Source: a virus
Strand: one strand, 5' to 3'
Length of the DNA stretch: 30,138 nt
IMG/VR virus record: IMGVR_UViG_3300042375_000676
Span: 1-30,138 of that record
The position numbers and the translations under genes were made by a program. How positions within the stretch are numbered: position 1 is the stretch's first letter; each line of letters starts with the position of its first letter. The notes under the pieces are model-generated. The model was given only the letters and a program-made list of their open reading frames with translations, did not search any database and was not told where the DNA came from. Of the stretch, positions 4,330 to 23,808 are shown piece after piece.

Positions 4330-4358
4330 AATTAAGCAAATGTAATATGAATTATTAA

Positions 4359-4390: not shown

Positions 4391-4415
4391 TCTTTATAAT
4401 TAAATTAGTTATAAA
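4388..4415 (-). promoter_or_regulatory. Candidate phage promoter/operator, copy 2 of a 28-nt palindromic repeat
   Basis: This stretch matches 20152-20179 at 26 of 28 positions. The core is a near-perfect 23-nt palindrome, tttataattaa/a/ttagttataaa, with one mismatch between arms. It overlaps the stop codon of the 1098-aa gene and lies about 58 nt before the start of the 854-aa gene. Two copies, each shortly upstream of a gene that follows a gap in an otherwise packed array, suggest a promoter or regulator site. No start site can be proven from sequence. Confidence 0.45.
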
Positions 4416-7400
4416 TTTTTGAATGCTTTAACAACTGAACTATTCTTAGCATTTTTAACAACTGATCCTCCATTCTTTTTCTTAGCAACTATACCTGGAG
4501 TTTGATAAGGAGCAGTGGTTGTTTCAGTTGTTGTATCATTATAAGGTTTTAATTCGTAACCTGTTATTTCACCATCAGGACCATATTTAGGAACCTGTAT
4601 AAATGATGCTTTGTTACCATACATCTGTGGAATATTTAGTTGAGTATATCCTTGATTATATATATTACCTGTTTGACCATATCTATAGTTAGGGAATAAA
4701 TTACGTTTAACTCTGTATTCAGCATTACGAGCTTCGTGTTGTAAATACTTATCACCAATAGATCCTATAGCTTCTTGATTAATTTTATTTGTAATAGCTT
4801 CTCCTTCTAATTGTTTATCTCTTTGATCAGCTAACAGTTGCATATTTATACCTCTTGCTTGATTTATCTTAGCTCTATTACCACCGAATATTTGTTGTTC
4901 AATAGCTTGGTTAGTTCTAAACTCTTCTCCTTTAACTGCTTGGTTTGCTTTATATTTATTAGCAAGTAAACCAGCTAATGCAGCAGGATTATTTCCAAGT
5001 TGTCTTTCTACATCTCTAAAGTCTGCAGTGTTTTGATTCATTACATCTTCATAACTTACACGATATACAGGATCTAACTCTGGAGCATATTGTTGAGCTT
5101 GTACAGGATAAGGTGTATTCTGAGCCATAGCCATATATTCTTTAGCAAACTGACGTGGATCAATATCAGGTAAATCATTATTTTGAAAAAATGGAGAAAT
5201 CATATTAGCGAAATCTACTATCTTATTTCTTTCATATGGAATTATATCTGTTGGTTTTTTAGGTTCTTCTTTAGGTACATTAGTTTTATCATCTTTAGGA
5301 ATTTCTGCAGGCTTTGGTAATAATAATTGATCAGCTGCCCAACCATAACCTAACTTCTCATCTATCATAGGTGTGTCTTTACCGTATAAATTCTGATGTC
5401 TAGCTTTAATCAATGGAGCACTTTCAGGATTGTTTAAAAGAAACTCTTGAAACTCTTTGTTTCCTTTTCCTTTGAATCCTAATTTGTCTGCTACTTCATC
5501 CCATTGTTTTGCACTAAATGAAGAAGCTGTAGCTTTACCATATTTGTTTCCTTTAGATGTATTTCCTTTCCAAGGAGTGATACCATATTTACTTACATAA
5601 TCTTTATCATCTCCAACAGTAGCACTGTTCTGAGCTTTTCTTAAGAACGCTCCATGTTTAGCATATGGATTTTCTAATTCAGCATCTTTAGTAATAGGAT
5701 CATAATCAGTTTCTATTTTACCTTTACCTAATGCTTCAGCACTAATGTTTTTTCCTTTAAGATATGATTGTTCTTTCTTCACTTCTTGTGTAGCATTCTG
5801 TAAGTTAGCTAGTTTCATTATTAGATCAGCATAATCTTTTTGTGTTTGGTCACCACCATATTCCATCATCTCTGCAGTCTTTAAATCAAGTGCTCCCCAT
5901 TTAGTAGTGTCTGCATCATTTGCTATTTCAGAAGCTTTAACTTTATTTTGTTCTGCTCTTTTTTGTGGTGCAGCTAAATCAGCTATTAGTTTCTTATATG
6001 TTTTACCATCTTTTTCTTTAGCAAGTTTAATAAGAGCTTCATCTCCTGTAGCCTGTGCTACTTTTTTAGTAAATGGTATATTACCAAATATCACAGCTGA
6101 TGTATTAGAACCCATTGATCCACCTTCTGCCATTTCAATAATAGGCTCTCCTGTTTCAGCTTCTACTTGTGCTCCCATGTTTGCACCATTTTCAGCCATT
6201 GATTGATAGTCTTCTTCTCCACCATTATAACTAATACCAATGCCACCATTATCGTGAGATGCTCCACTAAGCATACTTATTTCACCAGATCCTGGTAAGT
6301 AAGGATTGTAAGCTATAGGATTAACTTCTCCACCCCAATGAGTTTGAAGTTGTCCACCCATAGCATAAGAATTCATTCTTCCACCATTCTCATAAGTTTG
6401 CATAGCTCTTTCACTAGGAGCAGTGTATTCTTTTAAATGTCCACCAGCTCTAAATTTATGTGCATAGTCAGCAAAGTCATCAGCATTATGATCACCAAAC
6501 ATTGCAATCACTTGTGGATTATATTCAGGATTCATATATCCACCTTCTTCATATGCAGGAAGTTCTGTACCATCCTGAGCAACACCCATACCTTGTATAC
6601 CAGTAGTGATGTTATTTGCACCATCTACCTGACCCATCAATTTATTATTGAAATCCATTCTGTTTGTTGCATTTCTTTGTCTACCTGGATTTTTATCAAA
6701 AGCTGTTGCAACTTGTTCAGCTAACAATCCTACACCTGGTCCAAATGCACTACCAATCTTACCCCACTTTTTACCCTCTGCAGAATTATTAGAACCAGAT
6801 ATCATACCTGCAAAAGGACTACTCACTCCAAAGTTACCCATGAATCCTCCTGTAGCACTTCCACCTAATGCACCATTCATTTTTCCAAACCATTCTCCAA
6901 ATCCTCCACCAGTTTGAAATGCTTTAACTTGATCTTCATCTTGCAAAGGTGCATATCCAAGATCATCATATAATGTATTGTTAGGGGCATATGTGTTTTG
7001 TATTTCTGTTGGATTACCTCCAATGAAAGATCCATTTTGTACATTTAATATATCAGTTCCTCTTCCTTGTGTATTATATAATTCATTAGTGTTAGCAATA
7101 AATCTTTTATCATCTGGACTAACCCATTTATTTTTTGGTCTAGGCACAGCATCATTTGATCTTTTAGCTCTTAATACAACATCAGAAACATCAGCCCAAG
7201 TTTCATATTTCTTTGTTAATTCTTCTGCTGCTTTACTTTCTTGATTTAATTGATTAATATCACCTAGAAAACCAACTGCTTTACCAAACATATCCATTGC
7301 ACCACTACCTTTTTTATCACTAGGGTTACCATTTAATTCTTTTGCTGTAGGTAATTTTGCTGTAGGTAATTGTGTAGGAAGTTGAGCTAATCCTGAAGAT

Positions 7401-7706: not shown

Positions 7707-9749
7707 TTAGTTATATTTATTCAACCATCCACCTGGTTGTGGTTTGTTATAGTTTGTAAAGTTAGTTAGATTATCTAAGTTAACCAAACCTTTTTGTTCT
7801 TGTCTTAATCCATTCTGAGCCATAGGATATTCAGTTACCTTCTTTCCTTTGAACTTATAATTCTTTCCTGGTTTCATTAGTTTAGTATCACCAGTATCAG
7901 ATATACCTAACAGTGGTTGATCTACTCCTTCCATTGTTATTTTATTAGAACCTATCTCAACAGGACTTCCCCAATTATCAGGATTCCAATATCCCATATC
8001 ATCTTTAACAACTCCTCCATCTTCATAGCTATCTAACCATCCACCATTCTTACTAATGCTCTTAGGTTTCCAATCTAATCCCTCTTGATAGAATTTCATC
8101 TCTTGACCATTCTGTGCTACATAAGTTTCTTGTTCAGGTTGTTTATTCTGTGCAATATTATTCATTAGCCAGATTAAATCTTTATCTGAATAGTTTTTTA
8201 ACAAACGATCTTTTGCAAATGTTTTCCTTGCTTTTTTTAAATGCCCTTCATTAAAATCTTCTTTACCTGCATCATATATTCCTTGTTGTTTTAAATTATA
8301 TCTAAAAGAATTTAAATCAGCTTTATTTTCATATGGATCTTGATCATGTTCATTTATACCTTTTGATCTACCACCTCTCTTAATTAAATTATCTACATCT
8401 TTTTTATTTAATCTAAAGTCAAAATCATTTTCTCCTGTAGGATCTAATCTTTGTACTTCAGCATGACCAAGTTCATGTGACTCAGTTTCATTTATTGTAG
8501 GTGATGTAAACTTAGAATTTTTGTATATATCTTTATGTAGGAGTGCATCATTCTTTTCATTTAAATGTATTATGTTTTCATCTAAATTATAATGACTACT
8601 ATATTTATCAAAGTCACCAGAATCCCACATCTTATTCATTTCATAAGCTTCATTAGGTATTGGTTCAATCTTTGTATTTTTTACATTACCACTTCTAATT
8701 CTAATTTCCTTTGGTACATTTTCGTATCCAGATTTAGTTAATCTTTCTTTATACTTAGGGGAATTAATATAATCTAAAGTCCATTGTTTAACTGGATCAG
8801 AGTTTACAGTTTTTATTTTATATGAATTATCTTTAATTATTGGACCAAGATTTAAACCTTCTTGTGCACTAGCCATTGTTTTCTTTGCATACTTCCCATT
8901 GCTAGGAGCAGGAGATTGTGTACGTGCATATGAGAAACCTACAGCTCCTGGAATAGAACCACCCATCTGTGCTTGAGGAACATAGTTAACTGGATAAACA
9001 TATCCACCCATTTGATAATTAGGAGTGTTAGGATTAGCAAATGTATTATGAGGATTTCCTCTACCAGTTATAATTGCACGAGGAGGAGGTGCTTCACTTT
9101 CTACAGTTTTTACTTTTTGTTTATTTTTACCATTATATAAATCTTCTGGATTAGGCATCATTCTTCTAATACCATCTTCATTTACTGAATTATAATCATT
9201 AAAATTAAAACCATTATTAGTATAGTAGTTTGAAAATATTTCTTGATTAGTTCTTGTATCTTCATCTTCTATAACTTGAACATCATGCCAAGGCATATAC
9301 TCATCATCATAATTATTCATACCATAATCAACAGAATCTTTTGTTCTTGTATAATGTGGATTGAAAGTATTTAAATTACTTGCACTATCATCACCATATG
9401 TTTCATATTGATTTTTGTTTCCAAATATATTTTCAGTTAGATTTAAATCTGTTCCAGATAAAACTCCACCCATTTGAAATTGTCCACCCCATGCAGGAGA
9501 ATAGTTTCTACCTTTGGTGTTATTACCCATACCAACAAATCCTTCTGGTAATGACACAGAAGAATCATTATAATTCTCTTGGTGTTCTTGCATTGTTCCA
9601 CCATTAGCATAGCTATCTAGCCAACCACCATTTTTCATGTTGTTAGAATTATCTCTACCACACTCATGACATATGTACATATCTTTCTTACTAGAATCAG
9701 ATTTGTTCCATGACCATCCACATGTGCATTTTACTTTACCACTACTCAT
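7707..9749 (-). CDS. Cargo protein with zinc ribbon, GGWLDxY motifs and zincin-type metallopeptidase motif
   Basis: Residues 8-30 form a zinc-ribbon-like knuckle (CTCGWSWN, then CHECG; C8, C10, C27, C30). NGGWLDSY occurs at 40-47 and again at 568-575, and the protein ends with PGGWLNKYN. Further QMGG motifs lie at about 92, 246 and 261. The middle part (about 300-540) contains HELGH at 425-429, the HExxH zinc and catalytic motif of zincins, with acidic candidates for the third ligand downstream (E467, E474 in PYENKADLNSFRY). This supports a zinc metallopeptidase domain inside a virion cargo protein; the substrate is unknown. The N-terminal ribbon plus GGWL arrangement is something I associate with crAss-like cargo proteins. 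Its first base overlaps the stop of the 288-aa gene and the next gene follows one base after its stop, so it is cotranscribed. Alternatively the zincin motif could be structural only. Confidence 0.82.
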   Translation of the reverse strand: MSSGKVKCTCGWSWNKSDSSKKDMYICHECGRDNSNNMKNGGWLDSYANGGTMQEHQENYNDSSVSLPEGFVGMGNNTKGRNYSPAWGGQFQMGGVLSGTDLNLTENIFGNKNQYETYGDDSASNLNTFNPHYTRTKDSVDYGMNNYDDEYMPWHDVQVIEDEDTRTNQEIFSNYYTNNGFNFNDYNSVNEDGIRRMMPNPEDLYNGKNKQKVKTVESEAPPPRAIITGRGNPHNTFANPNTPNYQMGGYVYPVNYVPQAQMGGSIPGAVGFSYARTQSPAPSNGKYAKKTMASAQEGLNLGPIIKDNSYKIKTVNSDPVKQWTLDYINSPKYKERLTKSGYENVPKEIRIRSGNVKNTKIEPIPNEAYEMNKMWDSGDFDKYSSHYNLDENIIHLNEKNDALLHKDIYKNSKFTSPTINETESHELGHAEVQRLDPTGENDFDFRLNKKDVDNLIKRGGRSKGINEHDQDPYENKADLNSFRYNLKQQGIYDAGKEDFNEGHLKKARKTFAKDRLLKNYSDKDLIWLMNNIAQNKQPEQETYVAQNGQEMKFYQEGLDWKPKSISKNGGWLDSYEDGGVVKDDMGYWNPDNWGSPVEIGSNKITMEGVDQPLLGISDTGDTKLMKPGKNYKFKGKKVTEYPMAQNGLRQEQKGLVNLDNLTNFTNYNKPQPGGWLNKYN

Positions 9750-10615
9750 TACTTATAAGATATTTGTGCAGGTGCTGTTATAAATTGAGACACTAGATGA
9801 GTTGTTGAACTGTTATCTAGTATATGTCTCACCTTTAATTCTTTTGCTCTTAGCGTTGCTTTCTTAAAGCTCTTAGGGCCATAGTCCATATTAGCTTGAT
9901 TAACTATCTTATCAATAGAAAGATTTTCACAAGTTGTTCTAAATAATGGAATCTGAGAACTTATCTCTGCAGCCCAGAATGTATTGTACTGATAGAAGTT
10001 ATCACTCTTAGTATAAGTGATAGTTTTACTCTCAGCATTCAATATAGGATACTGCATGTATGCATGTAAGTTATGAAGAGGTTTAGCTACAAGTTCTAAT
10101 ATACCAGAACTCTGCTGTCCGTTATATAAGATAGCTTTATTAAACCATTTATCATTTGTTTCTATTCTTGTATTATCATCAAACACTCCATCAAATATAG
10201 GATAGTATTCATATGCTTTTGTATAATCTTTTACATTCTGTAATATTTCATCTTGGTATTGATACGCAAAAGGATACTCAATAATATATGGTTCTATAGT
10301 TCCATAGAATGTATTATAAAGTCTTATATTAGTTAAGTGTCTCCATAAACAAGCTGTAACAGATTGTGTGTATGTTGTATTTATAAACTCTACAGTATCA
10401 AATGATTCTAATTTAAAAGTATTTTCTATAGTACAATTTCCTACAGATTTTATAATTATAGCATTTACATTATTATTAACTTCATAACTCACTCCTCTAA
10501 TAAGAGTTTTCTTAGGAACATTTTCAGCTATGATATTTCCACGATCATCCAATATGTTGAATGGTCCTGCAGAAGGTCCAGCTTGTTTCAATTTTATTGT
10601 TATAATCTTTGACAT
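9749..10615 (-). CDS. C-terminal part of a split muzzle (tail stabilisation) protein with an N-terminal GPFN domain
   Basis: Residues 1-65 form a small beta domain with GPFNILDDRG (17-26) and a GNCT end (59-62). It is similar to the starts of the 83-aa and 436-aa proteins at 20246-20497 and 20515-21825. From residue 89 (CLWRHLTNIRLYNTFYGTIE) to the end the sequence looks like the C-terminal region of crAss-like muzzle proteins, including EYPFAYQYQDEILQNVKDYT, KWFNKAILYNGQQSSGILEL, NFYQYNTFW, LRAKELKVRHILDN and the ending SQFITAPAQISYK. In relatives, as I remember them, this region is continuous with the muzzle body; here it is a separate gene. The start is in AATTATG context, two bases after the stop of the 525-aa gene. 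Assembly into the tail muzzle beside the other two pieces is inferred. Confidence 0.8.
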   Translation of the reverse strand: MSKIITIKLKQAGPSAGPFNILDDRGNIIAENVPKKTLIRGVSYEVNNNVNAIIIKSVGNCTIENTFKLESFDTVEFINTTYTQSVTACLWRHLTNIRLYNTFYGTIEPYIIEYPFAYQYQDEILQNVKDYTKAYEYYPIFDGVFDDNTRIETNDKWFNKAILYNGQQSSGILELVAKPLHNLHAYMQYPILNAESKTITYTKSDNFYQYNTFWAAEISSQIPLFRTTCENLSIDKIVNQANMDYGPKSFKKATLRAKELKVRHILDNSSTTHLVSQFITAPAQISYK

Positions 10616-10617
10616 AA

Positions 10618-12195
10618 TTATGGAGCAGTAGTGGTTGTTGTTGTTGTTATATCAGCTATAGAACTTATCACACAGCTTCCTACTTGAGTAGCTGAATTTA
10701 AAGCAGTTACAGTTATACTTGATGTATCTGTAATATTTCTATATGTATCAATGATTGATTGAGGATTAGATTTAATTATTACATAAATATTTCCATCTAC
10801 ATCTGTTACATATATGTTACACTGACATTCGTATATAGAAGTAGGAGAGAATGCACCTACATTAATATCTACTAAAAGTGTTCCTGTAGCATAGTCATAT
10901 TCTGATATGTAATAATCTAATGTTACACTATCTTTGTTGATAATTAATAACTCACCAGTTTGTACATATAACATATTACCTTGTGCCACTCTATTTGTTT
11001 GTAATGTAAACTTAATAGTGTTAGATGCAGTTAATGTAGCGATGTCTAATTCTGTAACCTCTTGTGGAGATGGTGCATCATTTACAGCAATCAATGTAGT
11101 GTCATCTAAAGCAACTATTCCTGATGATGTAGTAAATCCACCTGAGAAAGAAATTGCTCTGTTAAATGTAGCATTAAATGGAGATAGAGTGATATCCCAT
11201 TCTTGTATATCAGTATCAATAGACCAAAGCTTATTAGTTGTCATAGCTATTCCTAGAGATGATATATATCCTGGAACATCTATAGGTTGTATAGAATCAG
11301 TGATACTATTAACATAATAGTAAACAACATCACCTGATGTAAATAATATACCACAACATTCTGAAATAACTGGAGGTAATGTAGTAGTGGTGGTAGTAGT
11401 CTCACAACCACAGTTTGATATTTCTACAATAATACCATCTACAATATGATATATGTAATCTTGAATAGAATACATATTAGGTAGAGTTGATACACTATAC
11501 CAACCATCTGGTAAATAAGTACAATAAATAAATGCTGCATTATATACATACTCTCCTAATATAGGAAGAGCTGTTACATCTTGCGTAGTGTATGTAGCTC
11601 CAAAGAAAGAAGTTAATACTATATCTACATTATCAGGACTTAAAGATGTTTGTACAACTGGTACAGCATCACATGCATCCTGAAGAGTTAATGAAGAATC
11701 AACTGGAGGATCTATTCCTATTGTATATCCTTGAACAAATGTAAATACATTTAGATCTGTAGGTGTAAGACATACAGTGGTGGTACTTGTTGTAGTTGGA
11801 TAAACTGTAATCACTCCTGTTCCATCTAATTCACAATCTGTTGTTACACCAAATCCATCTAAATCACAATACAATAATGTAGTGGTATGCGTAGTGGTTG
11901 GTTGTGGTGCTCCTGTAGTAGTTGTTGTAGTGCTTGGTGGTAAAGGTTTTGTCATAATTCCAACAAGAGCTTGAAATCCTCCTCCAGCAGAAGAATCATC
12001 ACAACATCCATTAAGTCCTGAATAAAAGAAATTATTTTCTCCTATATAAAAATTAGGAATATAAGTATGAAAAGAAATCCAACTTCCAGTATTTAAATTA
12101 TATGACATGGTCCAAGATTTATTACAAAAATAATCTGGATCTGATAAGTAAACTTTCGTTCTTATTACTACTGGTATTTTATTTTCGTCAGCCAT
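10618..12195 (-). CDS. Middle part of a split muzzle protein carrying Thr-linked beta domains, poly-Thr tail
   Basis: Residues 14-64 (KVYLSDPDYFCNKSW, SWISFHTYIPNFYIGENNFF, LNGCC) resemble a segment near the C-terminal third of crAss-like muzzle proteins. After it come Thr-rich linkers (88-106, 134-140, 266-272) separating inserted modules: a small C(D/E)LDGxGV double repeat (110-131), a beta domain (142-262) and a beta-rich domain (279-510) whose repeating strand pattern suggests a propeller or sandwich. The protein ends ITTTTTTTAP. No signal peptide or enzyme motif is visible. The simplest reading is that receptor-binding or decorating cassettes were inserted into the muzzle gene, which now ends here; the rest of the muzzle begins two bases later in another frame. 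The role in adsorption is inferred. A misassembly or sequencing frameshift is less likely because new domains, not just frame changes, lie at the breaks. Confidence 0.78.
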   Translation of the reverse strand: MADENKIPVVIRTKVYLSDPDYFCNKSWTMSYNLNTGSWISFHTYIPNFYIGENNFFYSGLNGCCDDSSAGGGFQALVGIMTKPLPPSTTTTTTGAPQPTTTHTTTLLYCDLDGFGVTTDCELDGTGVITVYPTTTSTTTVCLTPTDLNVFTFVQGYTIGIDPPVDSSLTLQDACDAVPVVQTSLSPDNVDIVLTSFFGATYTTQDVTALPILGEYVYNAAFIYCTYLPDGWYSVSTLPNMYSIQDYIYHIVDGIIVEISNCGCETTTTTTTLPPVISECCGILFTSGDVVYYYVNSITDSIQPIDVPGYISSLGIAMTTNKLWSIDTDIQEWDITLSPFNATFNRAISFSGGFTTSSGIVALDDTTLIAVNDAPSPQEVTELDIATLTASNTIKFTLQTNRVAQGNMLYVQTGELLIINKDSVTLDYYISEYDYATGTLLVDINVGAFSPTSIYECQCNIYVTDVDGNIYVIIKSNPQSIIDTYRNITDTSSITVTALNSATQVGSCVISSIADITTTTTTTAP

Positions 12196-12208
12196 TGTTA
12201 ATCTTTTA

Positions 12209-15200
12209 TTATGGTGTTGTAGTAGTCGTGGTACTTGTAGTGATAGGTTGATTAGTATAAACTATTGACTCAACATAAAACTCTTTAGTTATAGGATCAT
12301 ATTTTACATCTTTATCAATAGGAATATAATCTTGTTTTGTAATTATCACTCTATCAAACTTACTATCATATACACCATGAAGTCCTATTCCAGTATAGTT
12401 ATTATCTATATCAACATTAGGAAAGAATCTAAGTATTTCAAATGCTAAGTGATCTGTCATAAATCTATTTACACCAGAACCAACTGCTGTAAGATCTTTA
12501 GCTCCTTCATTAGTTATTAAAAACACTTGTCCTCTTTTAGCATCTACAGTTACTTGTCCTTGTGGTATCTTCAATAAGAACTTATTCTGACTTCCTACAT
12601 ATCCAAGATCTGTTTCAGCAAAATCAATAGGTGGAGTTTCTCCAAATAATTTAGTTCCTCCTAAATAAGCAGCTTTTGGATTTGTAGAATCCATTGTTAA
12701 TAATTTGTTATACAACAATGATTTGTTTTCAAATCTAGCAAGTACAGCTTTATCCTGAATACCATCTAATGATGTAAGCTTTCCATAGTTTTGAGGAAAA
12801 TCAAATAATGCTAATGGGGCATAACTTAACCAATTGTTAACTCTTATATCAGCATTTTGTTCTTGTGAATCAGAATAGATTGCTCTAAATGGATAATATG
12901 TATAACATAATTGACTAGTCCAATCTGCTGGTAGATGTGAAAAGAAGTTTTCTTTATTCTGTTTAGAGAATGTTACATTATAATAATATGTATTATCATA
13001 AGCAATTGTTGTAAACTCTTCTTGTACCCAATCATCAGGAATACCTGTAGATACATGTGGCCAGAAGTTTCCTTCTCTATCATTGAATGCTTGTCTTAAA
13101 TTTAAATTATAAGAAGTCTCACAATAAAAATTAGGAATACCATATGCAAATAAATAAAACTTACCATCATAAAATGTTCTATATGTACCAGCTGGTCCTC
13201 CAACAGTTGTAGGAGCTTTACTAGGATCACTAGGACAATCAAAGTTGTGAGCTTTAATTGATATAATGTTAGTCATTGTTTGGTAGTTATACAAAATAGA
13301 TCTAGCAGAATGCCAGAATTTTGGATAAGCTACGTTACCTATTTCATCATAGAATATATCACTATCATCTAATCCATTCACTCTATTATCTATAAAGAAT
13401 GGAAGTTTTGTTTTGTATGCAAATCTAGAAATAAATGTATCTCCACCAAACACTACATCATTTGAAAAACCACTATCAAAAAATCTTTGGAATCCTGTGT
13501 CAATTGTTTCATATGAATATATTTGTCCCCATTGGTTTACAAATATATTTTTCAATGAAGCATAATATACTACAGTTGTAATGTCTTGTTCTTTCTCAGG
13601 TGTGTTACAATAGTTTCTACCTGTAAGAGGATCTATATTACTAGAGATTGTGAATCTAGATTTATCTGTAATTAAAGATGTACCTAATGAATTAACAAGT
13701 GTTGGTGTTTTATCAGGGAATGGTAATGGCACTACTGAATTAGTTAATGCACCTTTTGTTCTTAAATAAATAGAAGACTCTCTTTGGTAGTTATTAATGT
13801 TTTTATCATCTCCAATATTTTGAACTCCTGGAATCATATAAGATTTTAAATCAAGAGGTCTTTGTTTAATACCAACATTTCCATTAATATCTGCAGTGTT
13901 ATTATTTATATCTGAATAGTAATCATAGTTAGCTACAGAGTTAAATGAATACGCATAATTCTTTCTTGTAATACCATTTACATAAATAGTTAGATATGCT
14001 TGGTATGCTGTAAATACAGCTGTTATATCTAGACCACCAATAGTAAATGATGCTTTTAATGCATCTTCTTGAACCTCTTTAGAAAGAAGTCTATATTTAG
14101 CATTACCTTTCACTTTGACAAAATGTGCTCTACCTCCACCAAACATTACATTTTCTAACTTAAGAACATCTCCTAAGAATGGTTGTGCAAAAGAAGTTTC
14201 AGGAGAATTAAACACTTGTCTATATCTAGAACTATCACTAGTTATAGGAGGAAGTGGTTTAGGATCTCCACAGAATGCATTAAGTGGTGATCTTCTTCCA
14301 TACTCTCTTCCTGGAACTACATTTCCAAAAGGAGTTAATGTATTTGGAGGAAACTGTCCTAATGGGGGTGTTACAAAAGGTTGCTTAGTTGCACAAGGAG
14401 CAGGTTGTAAATCTTGTTCTTTAAAAGGAACTGAGTTTAAATCTAATCTTTGAACATATACAGGACCAATAGCACCTGCACAAGGATAAGGCATCCATCC
14501 CCCCCAATTTAAAGTTTTAAGAGGTTGATTATCATTAGTCCAACGAGTATTACTTCTTAATTTATAACAACTAACACCTGCGCATGCATTATTAACATAC
14601 CACACATCATAGTTACCAGGACCTATTGTTGCTTTACCACTTAAATATATTGGTCTTGTTAAAGAACAAAATTCATAAGTTTCATTAGCAACCATTTGTT
14701 TAATTACTTGTTCACCAGTTTCTGGCTCAAAATAACTATAATCACCTGACTCAGTACATACAACCATCCATGGTTCTGTTTGTCCTAATACAGCATATGA
14801 ATTACTACTTGCTAATAAGAATGGATCTGTATTAAGATCGTTATATGGATAGTTTGGATAGTATAAAGTTTGATCTTGTCTTTGGTATGTTCCTACATTA
14901 CGGAGCATTCCTTTAGCTACAATAGATTTATTTGTATTTCTATTACCTCTTACAATTTTAAATCCTACAACATCATCTTTTTGATCTTGTGTAAGACCTG
15001 TTGATGTTTGTATAAGTGTTTCTATTTGTTTAATATTAACTTTTACACCTAATGGATATACAGCATTATTTTGCATCACTGGTTGAAACCCAGGAGTTAA
15101 TGAATATACAGGATTCTCAAATATAGGACTTACAAGAACATCTGGAAACTTATGATGTCTAATAGGTTTACCAGCAAGATCACCCCATACATCAACATTA

Positions 15201-16654
15201 CAAGGATACTCTTCTGTAGACTCCCAATAAGCAAACTCACCATATTGATATGGTGTAGCATTATTAATATTAGGACCAGTAGCATTACCTATGACAGTAG
15301 CTGTATTATATATTTTCCAATAAGAACTATATCCTATTCCTGTAACAGGATCGATATAATCAGGCTCACCTATAAAATCAGCATTAGTATTTGGTACATC
15401 TGGATATTGTAAATCAGCATAAGTTAATGTTCTTCCAGGAATATGGAACCCATCTGTTTGTTTTCCATTCTTTAATAAGAATACAATCTCAAATGCATAC
15501 ACCTCATCACGTAGATATCCACGTAGGTTTGTAGCATTTAATTCATCACCATAATTTTCATTGGAAGGAATTCTGTATGTCTCCCATAATAAATCTATTT
15601 GAGATGCTATTTGTTGATAATTAATTCTATCTATAGATGTAAGATTATCCCATACAAGAACATCTTGTACAGCTGTAAGATCTTGTGCTATATCATAGTA
15701 TGGATACTTCTCAAATATATCTGATGGAGAAAGATTAATAAGTGTATTATTCTGTCCAGTATATGTTATTGTGTCAACTTGATTCTCAATTGAATATGTA
15801 CCAACTAATTCTATAGTGGTAATATTATTAACTGTTTTAATTACAGCTACATTATAATATTGAAATAACCCTGTTGTATCTAAATTAGTAATACTAACTT
15901 CTATAGATCTACCCACTTTATAATCAAATATAGCTGTGGTTAATTGCGTATCAGCAATTGGTGTAGGATTTGTAACAGAGTAATATGATGTGTAAGGATT
16001 ACCAGATGCATTAGCATATTGAATAGCAAACTGATATGTACCAGCAGTAAGATCTCCACCACTAGCTATATCTGATATAGTAAGTTGTGGAATATTAAAA
16101 TTAGGTTGTATTTTTAATTGATTACAATCTAATTGATTTGTATATGTAGGGTCACAAGGATCTGAAGTAGGAGTTTGTAAATATGGAATATTTTCAATAT
16201 CTAAATATCTTCTTGGATTTAATCCATCTGTCCAATATATTTCTGTAGTGCAATTACTTATTTTATGTACAACTTTATGTATAGGATTGTTCTCATTAAA
16301 ATTAAGACATGCAGCTTCTACTAATGTACGGTAGATACAATCATTGTTATCCATATATCCTATTTGACTCATCCCTAGTTGAGGATTTACAACAAAGAAT
16401 ATATGTTTGCTTTTTTCTGCAATAAAGTGTCTACCAATTAACATGTATCCAGAAGGAAAACTTATACAAAGTTCATTCCCTTGTTCATTTTGATAATTAA
16501 TAGAACTTGCATCAAAGTTTTCTAAGGCAGCATTTAATGCATATGTAAGAGTACCTGGTTTAATCTGGTTCAAAGTTTGATCCATATTTAAACCAATAGA
16601 TCCACTATTAATTTCTATCCTTATATTACTTTGTTCTTTTTCTTGATCAGCCAT
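12209..16654 (-). CDS. Tail muzzle / stabilisation protein (main body), poly-Thr tail
   Basis: This 1481-aa protein has the N-terminal pattern of crAss-like muzzle (tail stabilisation, P22 gp10-like) proteins: a Gly-x-Asn-x-Asp start (GLNMDQTLNQIKPGTLTYAL, 17-36), a NEQGN/SFPSGY stretch (56-69), and a strand-rich segment around FFVVNPQLGMSQIGYMDNND. The rest is beta-rich with many Tyr/Asn, as expected for a propeller-bearing tail nozzle. In this family the protein forms the tip of the short tail and guides DNA and cargo outward. It follows the 324-aa ring protein by 5 nt, the usual order. It ends at an FDRVIITKQDYIPIDKDVKY region followed by TSTTTTTTP and stop, whereas relatives as I recall continue into the sequence found here in the next two genes. 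Both later pieces are in different frames. Confidence 0.85.
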   Translation of the reverse strand: MADQEKEQSNIRIEINSGSIGLNMDQTLNQIKPGTLTYALNAALENFDASSINYQNEQGNELCISFPSGYMLIGRHFIAEKSKHIFFVVNPQLGMSQIGYMDNNDCIYRTLVEAACLNFNENNPIHKVVHKISNCTTEIYWTDGLNPRRYLDIENIPYLQTPTSDPCDPTYTNQLDCNQLKIQPNFNIPQLTISDIASGGDLTAGTYQFAIQYANASGNPYTSYYSVTNPTPIADTQLTTAIFDYKVGRSIEVSITNLDTTGLFQYYNVAVIKTVNNITTIELVGTYSIENQVDTITYTGQNNTLINLSPSDIFEKYPYYDIAQDLTAVQDVLVWDNLTSIDRINYQQIASQIDLLWETYRIPSNENYGDELNATNLRGYLRDEVYAFEIVFLLKNGKQTDGFHIPGRTLTYADLQYPDVPNTNADFIGEPDYIDPVTGIGYSSYWKIYNTATVIGNATGPNINNATPYQYGEFAYWESTEEYPCNVDVWGDLAGKPIRHHKFPDVLVSPIFENPVYSLTPGFQPVMQNNAVYPLGVKVNIKQIETLIQTSTGLTQDQKDDVVGFKIVRGNRNTNKSIVAKGMLRNVGTYQRQDQTLYYPNYPYNDLNTDPFLLASSNSYAVLGQTEPWMVVCTESGDYSYFEPETGEQVIKQMVANETYEFCSLTRPIYLSGKATIGPGNYDVWYVNNACAGVSCYKLRSNTRWTNDNQPLKTLNWGGWMPYPCAGAIGPVYVQRLDLNSVPFKEQDLQPAPCATKQPFVTPPLGQFPPNTLTPFGNVVPGREYGRRSPLNAFCGDPKPLPPITSDSSRYRQVFNSPETSFAQPFLGDVLKLENVMFGGGRAHFVKVKGNAKYRLLSKEVQEDALKASFTIGGLDITAVFTAYQAYLTIYVNGITRKNYAYSFNSVANYDYYSDINNNTADINGNVGIKQRPLDLKSYMIPGVQNIGDDKNINNYQRESSIYLRTKGALTNSVVPLPFPDKTPTLVNSLGTSLITDKSRFTISSNIDPLTGRNYCNTPEKEQDITTVVYYASLKNIFVNQWGQIYSYETIDTGFQRFFDSGFSNDVVFGGDTFISRFAYKTKLPFFIDNRVNGLDDSDIFYDEIGNVAYPKFWHSARSILYNYQTMTNIISIKAHNFDCPSDPSKAPTTVGGPAGTYRTFYDGKFYLFAYGIPNFYCETSYNLNLRQAFNDREGNFWPHVSTGIPDDWVQEEFTTIAYDNTYYYNVTFSKQNKENFFSHLPADWTSQLCYTYYPFRAIYSDSQEQNADIRVNNWLSYAPLALFDFPQNYGKLTSLDGIQDKAVLARFENKSLLYNKLLTMDSTNPKAAYLGGTKLFGETPPIDFAETDLGYVGSQNKFLLKIPQGQVTVDAKRGQVFLITNEGAKDLTAVGSGVNRFMTDHLAFEILRFFPNVDIDNNYTGIGLHGVYDSKFDRVIITKQDYIPIDKDVKYDPITKEFYVESIVYTNQPITTSTTTTTTP

Positions 16655-16659
16655 AGTTT

Positions 16660-17634
16660 TTAGTTATTACGTCTTCTACCATATCTATTAGTACGGTTAG
16701 GAAGTTCATACATATTGAATCTATTAAGATCGTTTTTAATTCTTCTTTGCTTCTCCCAAGGAGTTTGTTTCTTCATTTCAATCTCAGCCATGATGTAAGA
16801 TTCTTCATAAGCTTGTTTATGATATAACATCTTTTGTTGTAACTGATTGAAAGTTTCATCATTAGTTTGATTAGTAAGAGTTTCAAATATCTTGAATTTA
16901 AGAAACGCTTCTACATATTCTCTAATACGATAGTTATCAGGAATCATTTGATTTCCTATTTGATCATACTCTGTAGCATAGAATAATAAGTGTACCACAC
17001 CATTTCTAAAATTAGTTACAAACTTATTGTCTCTAATATCAAATGAGTCATAACTAGCAGCACCAGGAGTGAATTCATGAATAGGAGGAGCTTCTGCATA
17101 GAAGTCCCAATTGTTAGTGTATTCCACTCCACAGTTTTGTCTTGCAGATATATTACCAGGCTTAAGTAAATACTCGTGAGTAAATCCTCTAGCTACAGTG
17201 TTGTTTGTTTTATATACAGCTTGTACTAATACAGGCATACATGTACCATCACATTGTGGAACTTGACAACCAGGTTGATTACAAGGAGTTCCTCCAATAG
17301 TTAATGGAGCCACTTGAATAGTTGTAGCTGAAGCAGCTTGAGAATAGAATGAATTAGCTGATTGATATGGGTATCCTGCAACTTCTGTACACATCCAAGC
17401 TTCTCTTACAGCATAAAAGTTATCAGGGAGTCTAGCTTGGTAATCTTCTATAAATAAGACTTCTTCACTTATTACAAAGGTAGTTCTTCCTAACTTCTTA
17501 AGACACTTATCTAAGTAGGTAGGAAATAAAAGATCATCCACTGCACCAGTATCAAAGTAACTTTTAAGTTCTTCTTTAACTGTTGAGTAGACAGGCTCTG
17601 GGGATACAAAATTATATTTATAGTAATATGACAT
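16660..17634 (-). CDS. Ring / tail tubular (head-tail connector) protein, 324 aa
   Basis: The N-terminal part (about 15-90) has the look of connector proteins of the P22 gp4 / crAss Ttub kind: FPTYLDKCLKKLGRTTFVIS, then IEDYQARLPDNFYAVREAWM. A Cys-rich loop follows at about 118-132 (CNQPGCQVPQCDGTCMP). A hydrophobic helix (RNGVVHLLFYATEY) and a helical, basic C-terminus (KQTPWEKQRRIKNDLNRF onward) finish it. It sits immediately before the muzzle gene and after two other connector-like genes, the standard position for a ring protein between portal and muzzle. The assignment is by family memory and position; which of the four known ring types it is cannot be decided here. Confidence 0.78.
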   Translation of the reverse strand: MSYYYKYNFVSPEPVYSTVKEELKSYFDTGAVDDLLFPTYLDKCLKKLGRTTFVISEEVLFIEDYQARLPDNFYAVREAWMCTEVAGYPYQSANSFYSQAASATTIQVAPLTIGGTPCNQPGCQVPQCDGTCMPVLVQAVYKTNNTVARGFTHEYLLKPGNISARQNCGVEYTNNWDFYAEAPPIHEFTPGAASYDSFDIRDNKFVTNFRNGVVHLLFYATEYDQIGNQMIPDNYRIREYVEAFLKFKIFETLTNQTNDETFNQLQQKMLYHKQAYEESYIMAEIEMKKQTPWEKQRRIKNDLNRFNMYELPNRTNRYGRRRNN

Positions 17635-17640
17635 AGTTCA

Positions 17641-18117
17641 TTATTTTTTCCATTCTCGGTAAATATTTTGGTACTTGTCGCTGGTTTTTAGATAGTGTGA
17701 TAAAAGTCTTGAAGTGAGTCTAGAAGGTTTGAAATACCATAGGTCAGAGTTTTTGAAACGTGCTGTTGGTTTAAACCACATCCAACCAAAAAAATAACCT
17801 TCCGTATGATAATTAAAGTTATAAATAACTTTTCCTTTCTCTTTAGTTTTCTGCCAATCGATTGGTAAGTTAATAAACTCTTTTCCATCAGCTAGTTTTA
17901 TTTTTCTTCTTTTCTTTTTATTGATAGAGAACTCTCCAAACCCATAAGGTAGTTTTGCTTTCTCACCTGTTTCTAATATATACTCTTTAAAGAATTCATT
18001 GTAAGTGTAGATAATATTTCTCCACTCATCATACGTAAGAGTTATAGAAGGGTGTTTTTTGCAGAACTGATTATAGTTGTCTTTGCTAGAGCTTCTCCAA
18101 TCAATCTTTGTTCTCAT
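17641..18117 (-). CDS. Conserved crAss-like tail-module protein with HU/IHF-like GFGEF segment, 158 aa
   Basis: A basic protein of 158 aa. Residues 38-75 (NEFFKEYILETGEKAKLPYG, then FGEFSINKKKRRK) resemble the beta-arm start of HU/IHF-type domains (ge-v-l-GFG-F). The remainder ends in FKPSRLTSRLLSHYLK and lacks the rest of that fold. IHF-like subunits are reported in crAss-like structural modules, so the resemblance may be real, but DNA binding is not shown. Its start shares one base with the stop of the 242-aa gene (18117), and 6 nt separate it from the ring protein downstream, so coupled translation is likely. It may instead be another ring or connector component. Confidence 0.72.
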   Translation of the reverse strand: MRTKIDWRSSSKDNYNQFCKKHPSITLTYDEWRNIIYTYNEFFKEYILETGEKAKLPYGFGEFSINKKKRRKIKLADGKEFINLPIDWQKTKEKGKVIYNFNYHTEGYFFGWMWFKPTARFKNSDLWYFKPSRLTSRLLSHYLKTSDKYQNIYREWKK

Positions 18118-18845
18118 TAATTAGTTGGTTTTGAGTTTGGTGATTGACCATCTATTCCTTCTTGACTAGTATCAGTTTTAAGATTGAAGTATGTAGATAG
18201 AAGTTTTTGAGATGTAAGTTGTAGTACTTGTTGTTCTAAATATCCAGGAAGAGGAAACTCTTTATCTAATGGATTCTTACATAGTTCTTCAGTAGTGTAT
18301 TCTGGAGTTCCACATCCACATTCTGGATACATGATTTCATTTTCTACATCTTCTTCAAATAATGCAACAAATCTAATTGCTTTAAGTAAAGGATTGTTTA
18401 CATATAGATATCCATTAGATATCCAATAGTATTCTTCTTTCTTGATTATAGGAAGCTTTAAAAGATTTATATATCTATTGATAGTTATTTCTTTTAACTT
18501 TTTTCCTACACCACTCATAGCATTAATGGAATAAACTCCTTGTATTACATATTGGTAATTACCTTCTGATATACGTGGAAGTTTAAACTTAGTTCTAGCT
18601 ATAGTACATTCATCTACATAATTACAACATTCAGAAATAGATACCTCTACCATTTCCAAACAAGGAATGGTAGTAAATAATGTATCAGTTGCCCAAAGCT
18701 TTCTTAGATTGGTTTCTCTCTTTATAAGTAATAAAGAGTTGTTTCTTATCTCAGATGCAATTGCTCTATCTGTAATAAGACTATCTGTAGAAAGTATCTT
18801 GTGGACACTTCTAACATCTGATACTAATTTTCTTAATGTTGCCAT
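18117..18845 (-). CDS. crAss-like ring/connector protein, 242 aa
   Basis: The N-terminal helix (RKLVSDVRSVHKILSTDSLI) and the segment DRAIASEIRNNSLLLIKRET are of a type I recognise from crAss-like ring proteins that stack under the portal. A strand-rich middle follows with a CLEMVEVSISECCNYVDECT stretch (58-77). The C-terminal part has a Cys pair (CGCGTPE, about 177) and a helix (LEQQVLQLTSQKLLSTYF), then a polar tail. It sits between the phosphoesterase and the 158-aa gene with almost no spacing. The start is in AATTATG context. Structural role by family memory and order; the exact ring is unknown. Confidence 0.78.
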   Translation of the reverse strand: MATLRKLVSDVRSVHKILSTDSLITDRAIASEIRNNSLLLIKRETNLRKLWATDTLFTTIPCLEMVEVSISECCNYVDECTIARTKFKLPRISEGNYQYVIQGVYSINAMSGVGKKLKEITINRYINLLKLPIIKKEEYYWISNGYLYVNNPLLKAIRFVALFEEDVENEIMYPECGCGTPEYTTEELCKNPLDKEFPLPGYLEQQVLQLTSQKLLSTYFNLKTDTSQEGIDGQSPNSKPTN

Positions 18846-20514: not shown

Positions 20515-21825
20515 TTAAAACGGACAAGGTCCTATTATATTAAATAGTACACCTCCTGTTGAGTAAACATTAGTTGCACAGCCAGTACCTGTTTCACCTG
20601 GTCCATAAGGAACAGTAGAGACAACACCTGTGTCACAATCAGTCACAACTAAATCTCCTCCAACATCTCCTGAATCATAAGAATATTCAAAACAATATCC
20701 TGTACAACCTGCTCCTTCTGTTGTGTCTGCTGGAAAGTTATCACTAATTAAAGGAGATTGAGCACATATTGTTATTGAAGGATCTAGTTCTCCTAAATTA
20801 ATAGTAAGTGGAGTTGATCCACCACATGGTGTGTATTGTACTGTATGTATCTCACCAGCAACTGGATCTATTAGATATTGTGCACATGTAGGAATACCTG
20901 TAGTTGTACTTGTAGTTGTAGATGTAGATGGTGTTGGTATACAGCATGGACCGAAAGCTTCTACAGTAAAGGATACAGTTGCTGATAATGAATTTCTATT
21001 CAAACATGCAGGATCATCAAGACCAATAAATACGTTTGGACCTGAAACTATAGCTACTGATTTAGGAGTACCAAAACAATCTTCATAGTTAAATGTACCA
21101 GCTCCATCTGCAATAATACTTACATACTCAACACATGGACACACAGTAGTAGTGGTTGTAGTTGTTGGCGGTATAGTAGTAGTAGTAGTTGTTGTTTGAC
21201 AAGCTCCTAAAATACAAGGATCTCCAACTGTAATTATTACACTAGGATCATTCGCAGATGGTAGAGATCCACAAAGTTTTACAGTTTCATTACCACCAAT
21301 ACCTATATTGAATAGTTCAACATTATCACAAGTAGTATATCCAAACAAATGAGGATTTTCATCTGTATTTACAAATGTTAAACAATTACAAGCAATAACT
21401 GTTGTTGTTGAAGTTGTTGTACTAGAACTACTTGTAGTAGTTGATGTAGTACTACTTGAGGTACTAGTTGTTGTACTTGTAGGAGGAACAGTAGTTGTAC
21501 TAGTTGATGTAGAACTACTTGTACTGGTTGTAGTGCTCGTAGGAGGAACTGTAGTAGTAGATGTAGTTGTACTACTAGAACTGGTAGTAGTAGTTGTAGT
21601 AATTAAATTGATTGGTATATCAATATAATTTGTACATGGTGCAATAGATCTCACTCTAATGATTGTTGTTCCAGGAGGTACATTAAATGATATAAATCCA
21701 GCTGTTAAAACAAGTGCAGATATATTTGTTTCAAATGGTAGGACATACCCATCTGTATCTGAATAAAGATTAAAAGGACCTGCAATCCCACCAGGTGGTA
21801 TGGTTAATGTTATTAAGACTGTCAT
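20515..21825 (-). CDS. Modular adsorption/decoration protein: GPFN domain, Thr/Ser linkers, Cys-paired modules
   Basis: Domains in order: GPFN domain (1-72); a long Thr/Ser linker (76-143) with the unit VPPTSTTTSTSSST repeated; Cys module A (146-209, CNCLTFVNTDENPHLFGYTT onward); a short Thr linker (211-227); Cys module B (229-294); a linker; Cys module C (314-375); and a related fourth unit to the end (376-436). Each module starts with a Cys, has a C-G or Cys near its middle and ends in Gly-x-Cys, with mainly beta pattern, which suggests small disulfide- or metal-free sandwiches. Module A is paralogous to residues 225-289 of the 537-aa protein. No anchor coiled coil is present. A role in surface binding is inferred from the neighbours. 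Confidence 0.75.
   Translation of the reverse strand: MTVLITLTIPPGGIAGPFNLYSDTDGYVLPFETNISALVLTAGFISFNVPPGTTIIRVRSIAPCTNYIDIPINLITTTTTTSSSSTTTSTTTVPPTSTTTSTSSSTSTSTTTVPPTSTTTSTSSSTTSTTTSSSSTTTSTTTVIACNCLTFVNTDENPHLFGYTTCDNVELFNIGIGGNETVKLCGSLPSANDPSVIITVGDPCILGACQTTTTTTTIPPTTTTTTTVCPCVEYVSIIADGAGTFNYEDCFGTPKSVAIVSGPNVFIGLDDPACLNRNSLSATVSFTVEAFGPCCIPTPSTSTTTSTTTGIPTCAQYLIDPVAGEIHTVQYTPCGGSTPLTINLGELDPSITICAQSPLISDNFPADTTEGAGCTGYCFEYSYDSGDVGGDLVVTDCDTGVVSTVPYGPGETGTGCATNVYSTGGVLFNIIGPCPF
21397..21600 (-). repeat. Thr/Ser-coding microsatellite with 60-nt tandem unit
   Basis: About 200 nt of ACN/TCN/AGT triplets (seen on the plus strand as GTA/TGT/AGT runs) coding the linker at residues 76-143. 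A clear 60-nt period is visible: gtaggaggaac recurs at 21479 and 21539. Because the unit is a multiple of three, length changes keep the frame. Confidence 0.8.
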
Positions 21826-22189: not shown

Positions 22190-22211
22190 TTGTATTAATC
22201 TTGTATTAATC
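22190..22211. repeat. Perfect 11-bp tandem duplication at the end of the 537-aa gene
   Basis: ttgtattaatc occurs twice head to tail. The copy at 22201-22211 codes the last residues and the copy at 22190-22200 supplies the TAA stop. Removing one copy would extend the protein by a few codons in another frame. Confidence 0.85.
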
Positions 22212-23808
22212 TTACTGAGAAACCAAGTGTTGGAGTACTACCAAAATTTCTATAAACAATTCCATCAGCAGGAGTCATTAGGCGATAATAATAATCTGTA
22301 GAAGGAAGAAGTGATGAAGGCCACCAATTACCACTAAAACCAAGATTACTAAATGCACCAAAACTATCTCGTAGACCTCCTCCAAGTGCTGAAAAGCCAG
22401 TACTATTAGTAGCATCTATATTATTAACATTCCAGTGACATAATCCTGTTTGTTTTAATGCACTACCAGCAACGCTTGAACCTCCTAAAAATGTAGTTAG
22501 CGTTGTCCATTCTGCATCACTTGGAACATGATAACCTGTTGGAGCTAATCCCCTTGGATCATTTACAGCGTACCAGTTGTATATTTTTCCATAAATTGGT
22601 CCATTTGCTGAATCATTATTGTAGTAACACCATGCAGGAGTAGTTAATGCTGCCCAAGCAGTTGGATCACTTACTTCTGGAATAGGATCACCATTTGCAA
22701 AAGTAGTAATATTTAGATTACATCCAGTCCACACTTGAGTTCCAATTGTTACATTACCTGGTATACAATTTACACATACAGTTGTTGTTGTAGTAGTTGT
22801 TGGTGCTACAGTGGTAGTAGATGTAGTAGTAGAACTAGAACTACTAGTTGTTGTTGTAGTTGTTGGATCTGGAAGTTGATTAGCAGTTCCAGTGAAGTTA
22901 CAATTTGGTATAGCAGTTGTTGTTGTAGTAGTTGTAATTCCAGGACATAATCCACCAATACAATCAGCTCCAACTGTAATTAATACAAGATCACTGTCTG
23001 CAGATGCACAACATCCACAAAATTGTGATGTTTGATTTGCAGCAATTGTAAAATCAATAGGCTCTCCAAGACAATTATTATATAAAATATTATGGCTTGC
23101 ACTACTATCTGTATTTTCAAATGTCAAACATTCACAAGGAATTGGTGTTGTTGTTGTAGTGGTAGTAGGTGCTATTGTCGTAGTACTAGTTGATGTTGAT
23201 GATGTTGTACTTGTAGTTGGAGGAAAGCAAGGACCATTTGGAATCACTATAATAGTTCCAGGAACAGTTAGAGGACTATCTGTTACAACACAAATATTTG
23301 TATCTCCTGGATATAGTATAATAGCGTCTGGCTCTTGTGTTGTACAATCAGTAATAATTATAGCTACTGGTACATCTCCTGTATTAGTTAATGAGAAGTT
23401 TTCACAAAGACGTATTGTTGTTGTACTTGTTGTAGTAGGTACAGCAGTAGTAGAAGTTGTTGTTGTACAACATTCACCTAATATATTATATATGTTAGTA
23501 ATATTATTGTTGATATTAGTAATCTCATTCTTAATATTAATAATTTCAATATTTAATATATTAATCTGTGTTAATAGATTACATATAATCTCATCAATCT
23601 TTTGTAATATCACATTAAGTGTATCACATGGTTCAGCTGTCGTACAACTTAATGCAGGACCATCATAAACAATAGTGCTAGAAGCAGTTAAATGAGTACC
23701 ACATGGATTGTTACAACCACCATTGGTGATTGTAGAACTACATCCACAAGGACTATTTAAAACTACATCTGTACAGCAAGGATTTACTGGTAAATATGGA
23801 TATGCCAT
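22195..23808 (-). CDS. Modular tail-fibre/adhesin with FISUMP (C-type-lectin-like) tip, 537 aa
   Basis: Domains in order: Cys-rich start (1-36); anchor (41-76, STIVYDGPALSC); Ile/Asn coiled coil (77-111, INIKNEITNINNNITNIYNI); Thr linker; Cys module (135-196); Thr linker; Cys module (225-289, paralogous to module A of the 436-aa protein); CNFTGTANQL (303-312); Thr/Ser linkers (314-343); and a C-terminal FISUMP domain (350-537). The FISUMP domain shows IGTQVWTGCNL, YGKIYNWYAV, PTGYHVPSDAEWTTL, GFSALGGGLRD, GNWWPSS and the ending GFSVRLIQD. FISUMP domains have a C-type-lectin-like fold and are common ligand-binding tips. The protein therefore probably forms a trimeric receptor-binding fibre. 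This class is a frequent target of diversity-generating retroelements, but no template repeat or reverse transcriptase is in the window. Confidence 0.85.
   Translation of the reverse strand: MAYPYLPVNPCCTDVVLNSPCGCSSTITNGGCNNPCGTHLTASSTIVYDGPALSCTTAEPCDTLNVILQKIDEIICNLLTQINILNIEIINIKNEITNINNNITNIYNILGECCTTTTSTTAVPTTTSTTTIRLCENFSLTNTGDVPVAIIITDCTTQEPDAIILYPGDTNICVVTDSPLTVPGTIIVIPNGPCFPPTTSTTSSTSTSTTTIAPTTTTTTTPIPCECLTFENTDSSASHNILYNNCLGEPIDFTIAANQTSQFCGCCASADSDLVLITVGADCIGGLCPGITTTTTTTAIPNCNFTGTANQLPDPTTTTTTSSSSSTTTSTTTVAPTTTTTTTVCVNCIPGNVTIGTQVWTGCNLNITTFANGDPIPEVSDPTAWAALTTPAWCYYNNDSANGPIYGKIYNWYAVNDPRGLAPTGYHVPSDAEWTTLTTFLGGSSVAGSALKQTGLCHWNVNNIDATNSTGFSALGGGLRDSFGAFSNLGFSGNWWPSSLLPSTDYYYRLMTPADGIVYRNFGSTPTLGFSVRLIQD
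22780..22869 (-). repeat. Thr/Ser-coding linker microsatellite in the 537-aa gene
   Basis: About 90 nt of ACN and TCN/AGT triplets coding residues 314-343, directly before the FISUMP tip. Shorter tracts of the same type precede each Cys module in this gene (residues 115-131, 198-223 and 292-298). Confidence 0.75.

Follow-up and report, generated by a model that had tools for sequence, protein, structure and literature searches.

In the 30,138-base IMG/VR virus record IMGVR_UViG_3300042375_000676, which represents an uncultured crAss-like phage and was analysed over its whole length (hereafter the window), the muzzle protein of the tail tip is encoded by three consecutive genes, one each for the body (P1), the middle (P2) and the C-terminal segment (P3). 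Our preferred reading, which we hold with a probability of about 0.77, is that the muzzle propeller of this lineage consists of two or three chains, with variable cassettes, probably surface-binding, at the breaks between them. Muzzle proteins of the described kind, such as gp44 of phiCrAss001, are a single polypeptide, which holds the phage closed before contact with a host (Bayfield et al. 2023, PMC10172136). Judged by profile and alignment comparisons, P1, P2 and P3 together are a split homologue and not the usual kind of muzzle protein.

Three Open Reading Frames for One Muzzle Protein

The three open reading frames (ORFs) follow one another on the minus strand. P1 (12209-16654, 1481 amino acids) ends in ITTSTTTTTTP, and 13 bases separate its stop from the ATG of P2 (10618-12195, 525 amino acids), which opens with MADENKIPVVIRTKVYLSDPDYFCNKSW, carries NNFFYSG further on and ends in DITTTTTTTAP. 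Two bases after the stop of P2 lies the ATG of P3 (9749-10615, 288 amino acids), where a GPFN domain close to the start is followed by CLWRHLTN and the C-terminus is QISYK; the P3 stop overlaps the ATG of the next gene by one base. We refer to the P1/P2 boundary as joint 1 and to the P2/P3 boundary as joint 2. The ORFs, coordinates, threonine (Thr)-rich ends and stop plus new start at both joints that an initial annotation of the window had listed were all found, and the GPFN domain that it placed at a break does open P3. The inserted beta domains which it assigned to both joints are present at joint 2 (P2 residues ~145-510) and absent from joint 1, which carries a Thr tail only.

The muzzle identity of P1 is indicated by Pfam crAss_MUZ (PF25731; 126.8 bits, cut-off 27) and by PHROG 37948, which matches the body with E 3.9e-97. 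PHROG 15100 (1783 columns) runs through all three proteins in order. Its best match covers columns 12-421 in P1, 1546-1586 in P2 (E 1.2e-8) and 1588-1780 in P3 (E 2.5e-12), so that the P2 and P3 stretches abut (1586/1588). A C-terminal profile of seven single-chain muzzles (Lbo-JY46, phi17:2, Fpv3, csAssE-Sib and the loci L126, L129, and L125) was aligned by hhalign with P2 from residue 14 (99.3%, E 2.1e-20) and with P3 residues 86-286 (99.8%, E 2.8e-29), and the two alignments meet at one place of the single-chain template. The muzzle segments are complete through the C-terminus only when P1, P2 and P3 are taken together, and with three ORFs the window departs from the single polypeptide that characterises the crAss-like muzzle family. 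The order in PHROG 15100 and the alignment to single-chain muzzles thus bear out the proposal of the initial annotation that the three ORFs correspond to successive parts of a single chain in relatives; these relatives carry both the P2 N-terminus and the P3 C-terminus inside the muzzle. No Pfam family scored above its cut-off in P2 or P3, which could therefore easily pass as hypothetical proteins. The window record holds no second match to P3, and PDB sequence searches with P1, P2 and P3 returned nothing useful.

Conservation of the Split Among Relatives

Relatives (L002-L129 and L136-L424) were collected in six IMG/VR scans, five of which used a P3 query and each covered the best 80 of ~400 encoded relatives. 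The 409 loci with all three parts reduce to 219 unique loci; 191 of these have a break at joint 2 alone, 25 at both joints and 3 at neither, giving a split joint 2 in 216 of 219. A smaller first set (n = 95) contained 67 loci split at joint 2 only, 24 at both joints and 4 at neither; the single-chain locus L129 lies outside the unsplit set of 219, hence the 3 unsplit loci there and the 4 in the smaller set. Because mostly split P3 proteins served as queries, these shares describe the lineage and not all crAss-like phages. The same three ORFs recur in two other IMG/VR contigs (L002 and L003) with matched segments 100% identical, and both contigs may derive from the virus of the window itself. 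The ratios of nonsynonymous to synonymous substitution rates (dN/dS) between the window and L006 are ~0.30 for P1, ~0.43 for P2 and ~0.20 for P3, values that place all three genes under purifying selection. The split is real and wider than first noted.

Single-chain muzzles are found in five genomes with a single annotated coding sequence (CDS) for the muzzle (phi17:2, Fpv3, Lbo-JY46, csAssE-Sib, and phiCrAss001; annotation examined) and in the loci L125, L126, L127, and L129, and an additional scan aimed at such relatives yielded no contigs beyond those of these four loci. P3 matches 30 GenBank phage records, three of which were examined: Lbo-JY46 and Fpv3 have one CDS and MT837925 one open frame. 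Among genome contigs, 61 stretches matched a pattern and 0 were confirmed as P3 relatives, so no host is assigned; the source of csAssE-Sib is a human gut sample. A split muzzle or Thr-rich joints were not found in the openly licensed literature, including PMC10172136, PMC11054128, PMC12386605, PMC10136315, and PMC7886860, an absence that carries little weight. PMC7886860 describes a different case, a capsid ORF in five fragments with group I introns.

Joint 2: A Clade-Wide Break With a GPFN Domain

P3 has an N-terminal GPFN domain in 215 of the 216 loci split at joint 2, the exception (L237) having no GPFN match. In a tree built on few columns, the 197 distinct GPFN copies of P3 group in a single clade that excludes 143 free GPFN domains, with 1 change and a local support of 99 (the trees for GPFN, the cysteines and the state of joint 1 are quick or FastTree trees only). 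GPFN matches begin within 30 residues of the frame start in all 731 ORFs that contain one (loci not deduplicated). Given the single clade and the constant position at the frame start, one insertion is the simplest account, and would have supplied the muzzle gene with both a gene end and the start of a GPFN gene. Joint 2 is a clade-wide split that is apparently tied to one capture of a GPFN-type gene start. The distance from the P2 stop to the P3 start lies within 50 bases in 159 of 216 loci and exceeds 200 bases in 54; an ORF was found between the two genes in 53 of the latter, headed by GPFN in 52. P2 is short in four of these 52 loci (L099, L102, L104, and L107), as though its cassette now formed a separate, fourth chain.

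Folded alone with AlphaFold2, GPFN and the propeller of P2 are predicted to fold, unlike the muzzle parts of P2 and P3, for which the predicted local distance difference test (pLDDT) reaches 27-37 in P2 and 23-49 from residue 91 on in P3. The best structural match of GPFN was chain D of 8gl8, a type IX secretion system translocon with RemZ (Z 6.1, 65 aligned, root-mean-square deviation (rmsd) 2.4), a weak match below the noise level of the tool, and there was no Foldseek match for GPFN at 0.001.

Across joint 2, all 216 split loci fall into two classes of cysteine pattern (counted with a wider motif pattern, as a narrower one missed 10). In 125 of 125 loci a CC motif in P2 occurs together with a cysteine beside the LW motif of P3, while the remaining 91 of 91 have a single P2 cysteine without the LW-adjacent P3 cysteine, and no locus is mixed; 24 of these 91 have a cysteine four residues earlier in P3. 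The eight aligned single-chain muzzles have no cysteine in the corresponding loop (read by eye). P2 and P3 lie more than 200 bases apart in 11 of the 125 loci with the cysteine pair, compared with 43 of the 91 without it. An inter-chain disulfide between P2 Cys64 and P3 Cys89 is plausible from this co-occurrence, and in PMC10172136 the tail barrel and fibre hubs of phiCrAss001 are described as disulfide-stabilised.

Joint 1: A Recurrent Break

The state of joint 1 changes at least 6 times on a quick tree of the body (93 loci, without the short-bodied L012 and L056) and 8 times on a FastTree tree (206 loci), which indicates that joint 1 has been opened repeatedly. The 25 loci split here comprise 17 with a Thr tract and a cassette, 7 with a Thr tail only, the form to which the window and L002 belong, and 1 with neither; a Thr tract is thus present in 24 of 25. 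Among the 194 loci with a fused joint 1, 34 have a threonine/serine (T/S) tract in line at the joint, in agreement with the statement of the initial annotation that Thr-rich stretches sometimes mark the same joints in relatives, here in the unsplit form. In five loci (L101, L106, and L108-L110), ~100 amino acids with a Thr tract are inserted at joint 1 in an unbroken chain, and the single chains of phi17:2 and Fpv3 have ~300 amino acids at this site. Insertion is therefore possible without fission and may precede it. The interpretation in the initial annotation is supported in part. The breaks do coincide with added domains, and the cassettes may have caused the break at joint 2, but the histories of the joints differ, joint 2 being clade-wide and joint 1 recurrent.

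L052 is a mosaic, whose body is that of the joint-1-split clade to about column 1350, while its distal part (P2 start and P3 end) matches L044, a member of the fused clade, at 94% identity. As far as these alignments go, this is a natural exchange that left joint 1 fused. P1 and P2 are 316 bases apart in L092 and 1263 in L063, where further genes may be entering joint 1. At L023:6742-6755 the joint 1 frames overlap by 14 bases without Thr tract or cassette, which looks like a recent frameshift or a sequence error.

Cassettes and Threonine Tracts

The extensions at joint 2 range from 26 to 804 amino acids and contain a T/S tract in 214 of 216 loci; in 86 of 216, a T/S run falls within the 14 C-terminal P2 residues. 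Closely related muzzles can carry very different extensions: the bodies of L116 and L121 are 98.5% identical, with joint-2 extensions of 193 and 75 amino acids, and those of L113 and L114 are 94.3% identical, with extensions of 524 and 377 amino acids of which 37 were matched (these comparisons use the best stretch only, and one stretch was confirmed for each pair). Cassettes at both joints turn over fast. No pair was found with a cassette much closer than the bodies, the largest excess being 3.3 points, and pairwise comparison does not support the transfer of whole joint-2 cassettes between distant muzzles.

Domain b of P2 is predicted with pLDDT 75-93 over residues 301-470 and lower values at its ends (AlphaFold2), and resembles the YWTD propeller of LRP6 (VIA-align Z 15.2, 211 aligned, rmsd 4.0). 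In the joint-1 extension of L010 a Fib_succ_major domain (PF09603) scores 75.1 bits (cut-off 33.9) and has relatives in L030, L037, L069, and L074; P1, P2 and P3 of the window have no Pfam match to this family. The separate tail gene at 22195-23808 of the window is 51.8% identical over 191 amino acids to the joint-1 cassette of L074, and on the basis of these matches the Fib_succ_major domain is common to the muzzle (in relatives) and another tail gene. Matches to other Thr-tract genes of the loci were obtained for 19 of 206 muzzle cassette units, probably a lower bound because few loci reach the fibre genes.

A Thr tail stands at the gene end in 143 of the 1986 genes chosen in the loci of relatives. 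Of the genes directly before other GPFN genes, 29 of 88 have such a tail, as do 67 of 213 genes directly before P3, compared with 12 of 1283 elsewhere. These counts are not corrected for kinship; after deduplication they become 26/79, 62/196, and 11/1076. Codon choice is mixed within the tracts, so that selection seems to act on the peptide. Their DNA was also considered as a recombination repeat and rejected, since the longest shared codon run is on average 2.77 codons for genes of the same locus and 2.74 for different loci, and runs of at least 6 codons are shared in 1.1% of cases within the same locus and 0.5% between loci; with so little DNA in common, it seems to be the protein sequence of the tracts, and not a DNA repeat, that is conserved. 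A bare Thr tail could be the scar of a lost cassette, a rigid or glycosylated stalk, or a docking strand.

Proposed Assembly and Alternative Explanations

The sequence comparisons establish the gene split, its conservation and the turnover of the cassettes, and suggest the following assembly. The P1, P2 and P3 chains would co-assemble and together close the muzzle propeller; a hexamer like that of phiCrAss001 would contain six copies of each chain. At joint 2, one strand of a hairpin would come from P2 and the other from P3, and in the lineage of the window a disulfide between P2 Cys64 and P3 Cys89 probably ties P2 to P3. The cassettes, i.e., the propeller of P2, the GPFN domain of P3 and, in relatives, Fib_succ_major and others at joint 1, would be displayed on the outside by polythreonine linkers and may bind cell-surface structures, which would make modules exchangeable without disturbing the gate. 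A more far-reaching version, in which a split propeller with a disulfide-stapled blade is combined with a connector system of Thr tails and GPFN that exchanges surface-binding modules between the muzzle and other tail genes, we regard as unlikely.

Several points weigh against the multi-chain reading. We infer both the assembly of the chains from their sequences and the surface binding by the cassettes. The single-chain C-terminal profile had no match in a PDB sequence search, and the profile comparison with phiCrAss001 gp44 that the initial annotation had proposed worked only via that profile, which reaches gp44 over both joints (89.6%, E 1.9e-6); P3 alone gave no match (0.4%), so that the link to gp44 runs through intermediates. 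The low pLDDT of the muzzle parts could also result from shallow alignments (25 and 15 sequences), the propeller match of P2 is to a common fold, and 187 of 206 muzzle cassette units have no match in other Thr-tract genes. The cysteines co-change perfectly, but in 2 supported independent events (sign test p 0.5; 5 changes on a less resolved P3 tree), which makes them a strong lead and not proof, and as 91 of 216 loci are split without the pair, it is not required.

Such a split could also arise from faulty sequencing or assembly, or from gene decay, and L023 looks like a case of this kind; we consider this negligible as a general explanation, because the split is conserved in 216 of 219 loci at joint 2 and in 25 at joint 1, the form of the window recurs in L002 and L003, and all three genes are under purifying selection. 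The frameshift error that the initial annotation had named as a possible objection is countered by the same 216 loci. It is also very improbable that the three ORFs are translated as a single polypeptide through programmed frameshifting or readthrough of the stops. The tight spacing of joint 2 (within 50 bases in 159 of 216 loci) would suit such a mechanism, as would the shared frame of P1 and P3 in the window and the proline with which Thr tails often end before the stop (67 of 131, compared with 73 of 1386 other genes), as a C-terminal proline slows termination. However, joint-2 distances are spread over all three frames (87, 67, and 62 of 216), and in 54 loci P2 and P3 are more than 200 bases apart, with an ORF found there in 53, neither of which fits.

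P2 and P3 could instead be separate fibre or decoration proteins that keep a muzzle-derived anchor and lie outside the muzzle core. Cassettes make up most of P2, both proteins have their own starts, and GPFN-headed genes stand between them in 52 of 216 loci. However, P3 is best conserved in its muzzle part (identity to L004 is 93% there and 51% in the GPFN part), this part covers the C-terminal segment of single-chain muzzles, and P3 has no second match in the window; we therefore judge this explanation improbable. Slightly less credence still goes to the idea that a Thr tail docks into the GPFN domain of the next protein, as a complementing strand or a tag-like plug that holds the chains together. 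The enrichment of Thr tails directly upstream of GPFN genes (29/88 and 67/213 vs. 12/1283) is what docking would predict, and GPFN looks immunoglobulin-like (Ig-like), its weak structural matches including SpyCatcher and usher or chaperone domains. Yet about two thirds of the GPFN genes have no Thr-tailed neighbour, the association may be inherited gene order, as the counts are uncorrected for phylogeny, and the structural matches (Z 5-6) are below the typical noise level stated by the tool.

If the multi-chain reading is correct, a gate made of two or three chains, with its breaks where new domains enter, would mean that a core part of the injection machinery was opened to module exchange while its function was kept. 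The exact break points, the cysteine pair and separately expressible chains are now defined.

Features and Neighbouring Genes

Features of the split muzzle and related genes in the window.
Feature	Position	Strand	Basis or remark
P1 muzzle body	12209..16654	-	muzzle to ~residue 1465, then Thr tail; Pfam crAss_MUZ, PHROG 37948/15100, single-chain alignment
P1 Thr tail at joint 1	12212..12241	-	no cassette behind; from sequence
P2 N-terminal 63 amino acids, muzzle segment between the joints (DPDYFCNKSW...NNFFYSGLNG)	12007..12195	-	hhalign, PHROG 15100
P2 Cys64-Cys65, broken edge of joint 2	12001..12006	-	co-occurrence with P3 Cys89 in relatives
P2 cassette domain a (~residues 145-262), between Thr tracts	11410..11763	-	AlphaFold2, ten-residue blocks pLDDT 48-78
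P2 cassette domain b (~residues 273-506), beta-propeller-like	10678..11379	-	AlphaFold2, VIA-align
P2 Thr tail TTTTTTTAP	10621..10647	-	from sequence
P3 residues 1-80, GPFN domain, possibly Ig-like	10376..10615	-	AlphaFold2 pLDDT 80-91; weak Ig-like structural matches
P3 residues 86-288, C-terminal muzzle segment (CLWRHLTN...QISYK)	9752..10360	-	hhalign, PHROG 15100
P3 Cys89 beside LWRH, broken edge of joint 2	10349..10351	-	co-occurrence with P2 cysteines in relatives
Separate GPFN gene with Thr tail, 83 amino acids	20246..20497	-	30.6% identical to P3 N-terminus over 62 amino acids, E 2.4e-6
Separate gene, GPFN then Thr tracts and further domains	20515..21825	-	28.8% identical to P3 N-terminus over 66 amino acids, E 3.4e-5
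Separate tail gene, Thr tracts, C-terminal Fib_succ_major	22195..23808	-	PF09603 133 bits, cut-off 33.9

Near the muzzle gene, CrAss_Ring_1 (36.7 bits, ORF 16660-17634) and CrAss_Ring_2 (68.1 bits, ORF 18117-18845) score above their cut-offs of 27, in keeping with membership of the order Crassvirales, where ring proteins are encoded beside the muzzle. Four ORFs of the window end in a Thr run, namely 26895-28025 (then AP), 20246-20497 (LT), 12209-16654 (P), and 10618-12195 (AP). The ORFs 20515-21825, 22195-23808, and 24971-26134 each encode several small domains with Thr/Ser tracts as connectors, and the last of them ends in TIYTHFDAL, nearly the same as the end of the joint-1 extension of L063 (NTIYTHFEAI). 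The window contains no tRNA or tmRNA genes and no Rfam matches at gathering score. Elsewhere, in csAssE-Sib an annotated TnpB-family protein and a periplasmic metallopeptidase stand shortly before the muzzle (L134:1620-2081 and 3521-4744), and L130 (PP438436.1), with the cyanobacterium Leptolyngbya boryana as recorded host, an entry that may merit a check, has a crAss-like muzzle 32% identical to P1.

Comparison With Known Muzzle Proteins

In PMC10172136, gp44 of phiCrAss001 is described as a tail-tip gatekeeper with propeller, Ig-like and crass domains, and the length variation of muzzles is attributed to insertions in the crass and IG2 regions. This protein is homologous to P1, P2 and P3 together, but is one chain (1371 amino acids) and forms a hexamer (PMC10172136), whereas the window has three genes. 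By alignment, joint 1 corresponds to about residues 1193-1201 of gp44 and joint 2 to 1235/1236. Both joints thus lie outside IG2 (318-1021), and differ in this from the insertion regions named in PMC10172136; as they follow IG2, they would be located in later propeller blades, with joint 2 probably between two strands resembling a beta-hairpin. The muzzles of csAssE-Sib and Lbo-JY46 have the same segments in the same order as the window, but in one chain with only short loops at both joints. Cellulophaga phage phi17:2 (gp043) and Flavobacterium phage Fpv3 (gp29) each carry ~300 amino acids in line at the site of joint 1, although their chains are unbroken and no long Thr run is visible in the aligned insert. 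In modular tail fibres, receptor-binding domains are swapped on conserved anchors. Unlike in these fibres, the modules of the split muzzle are placed on the gate protein itself, and the chain is cut at the sites of insertion.

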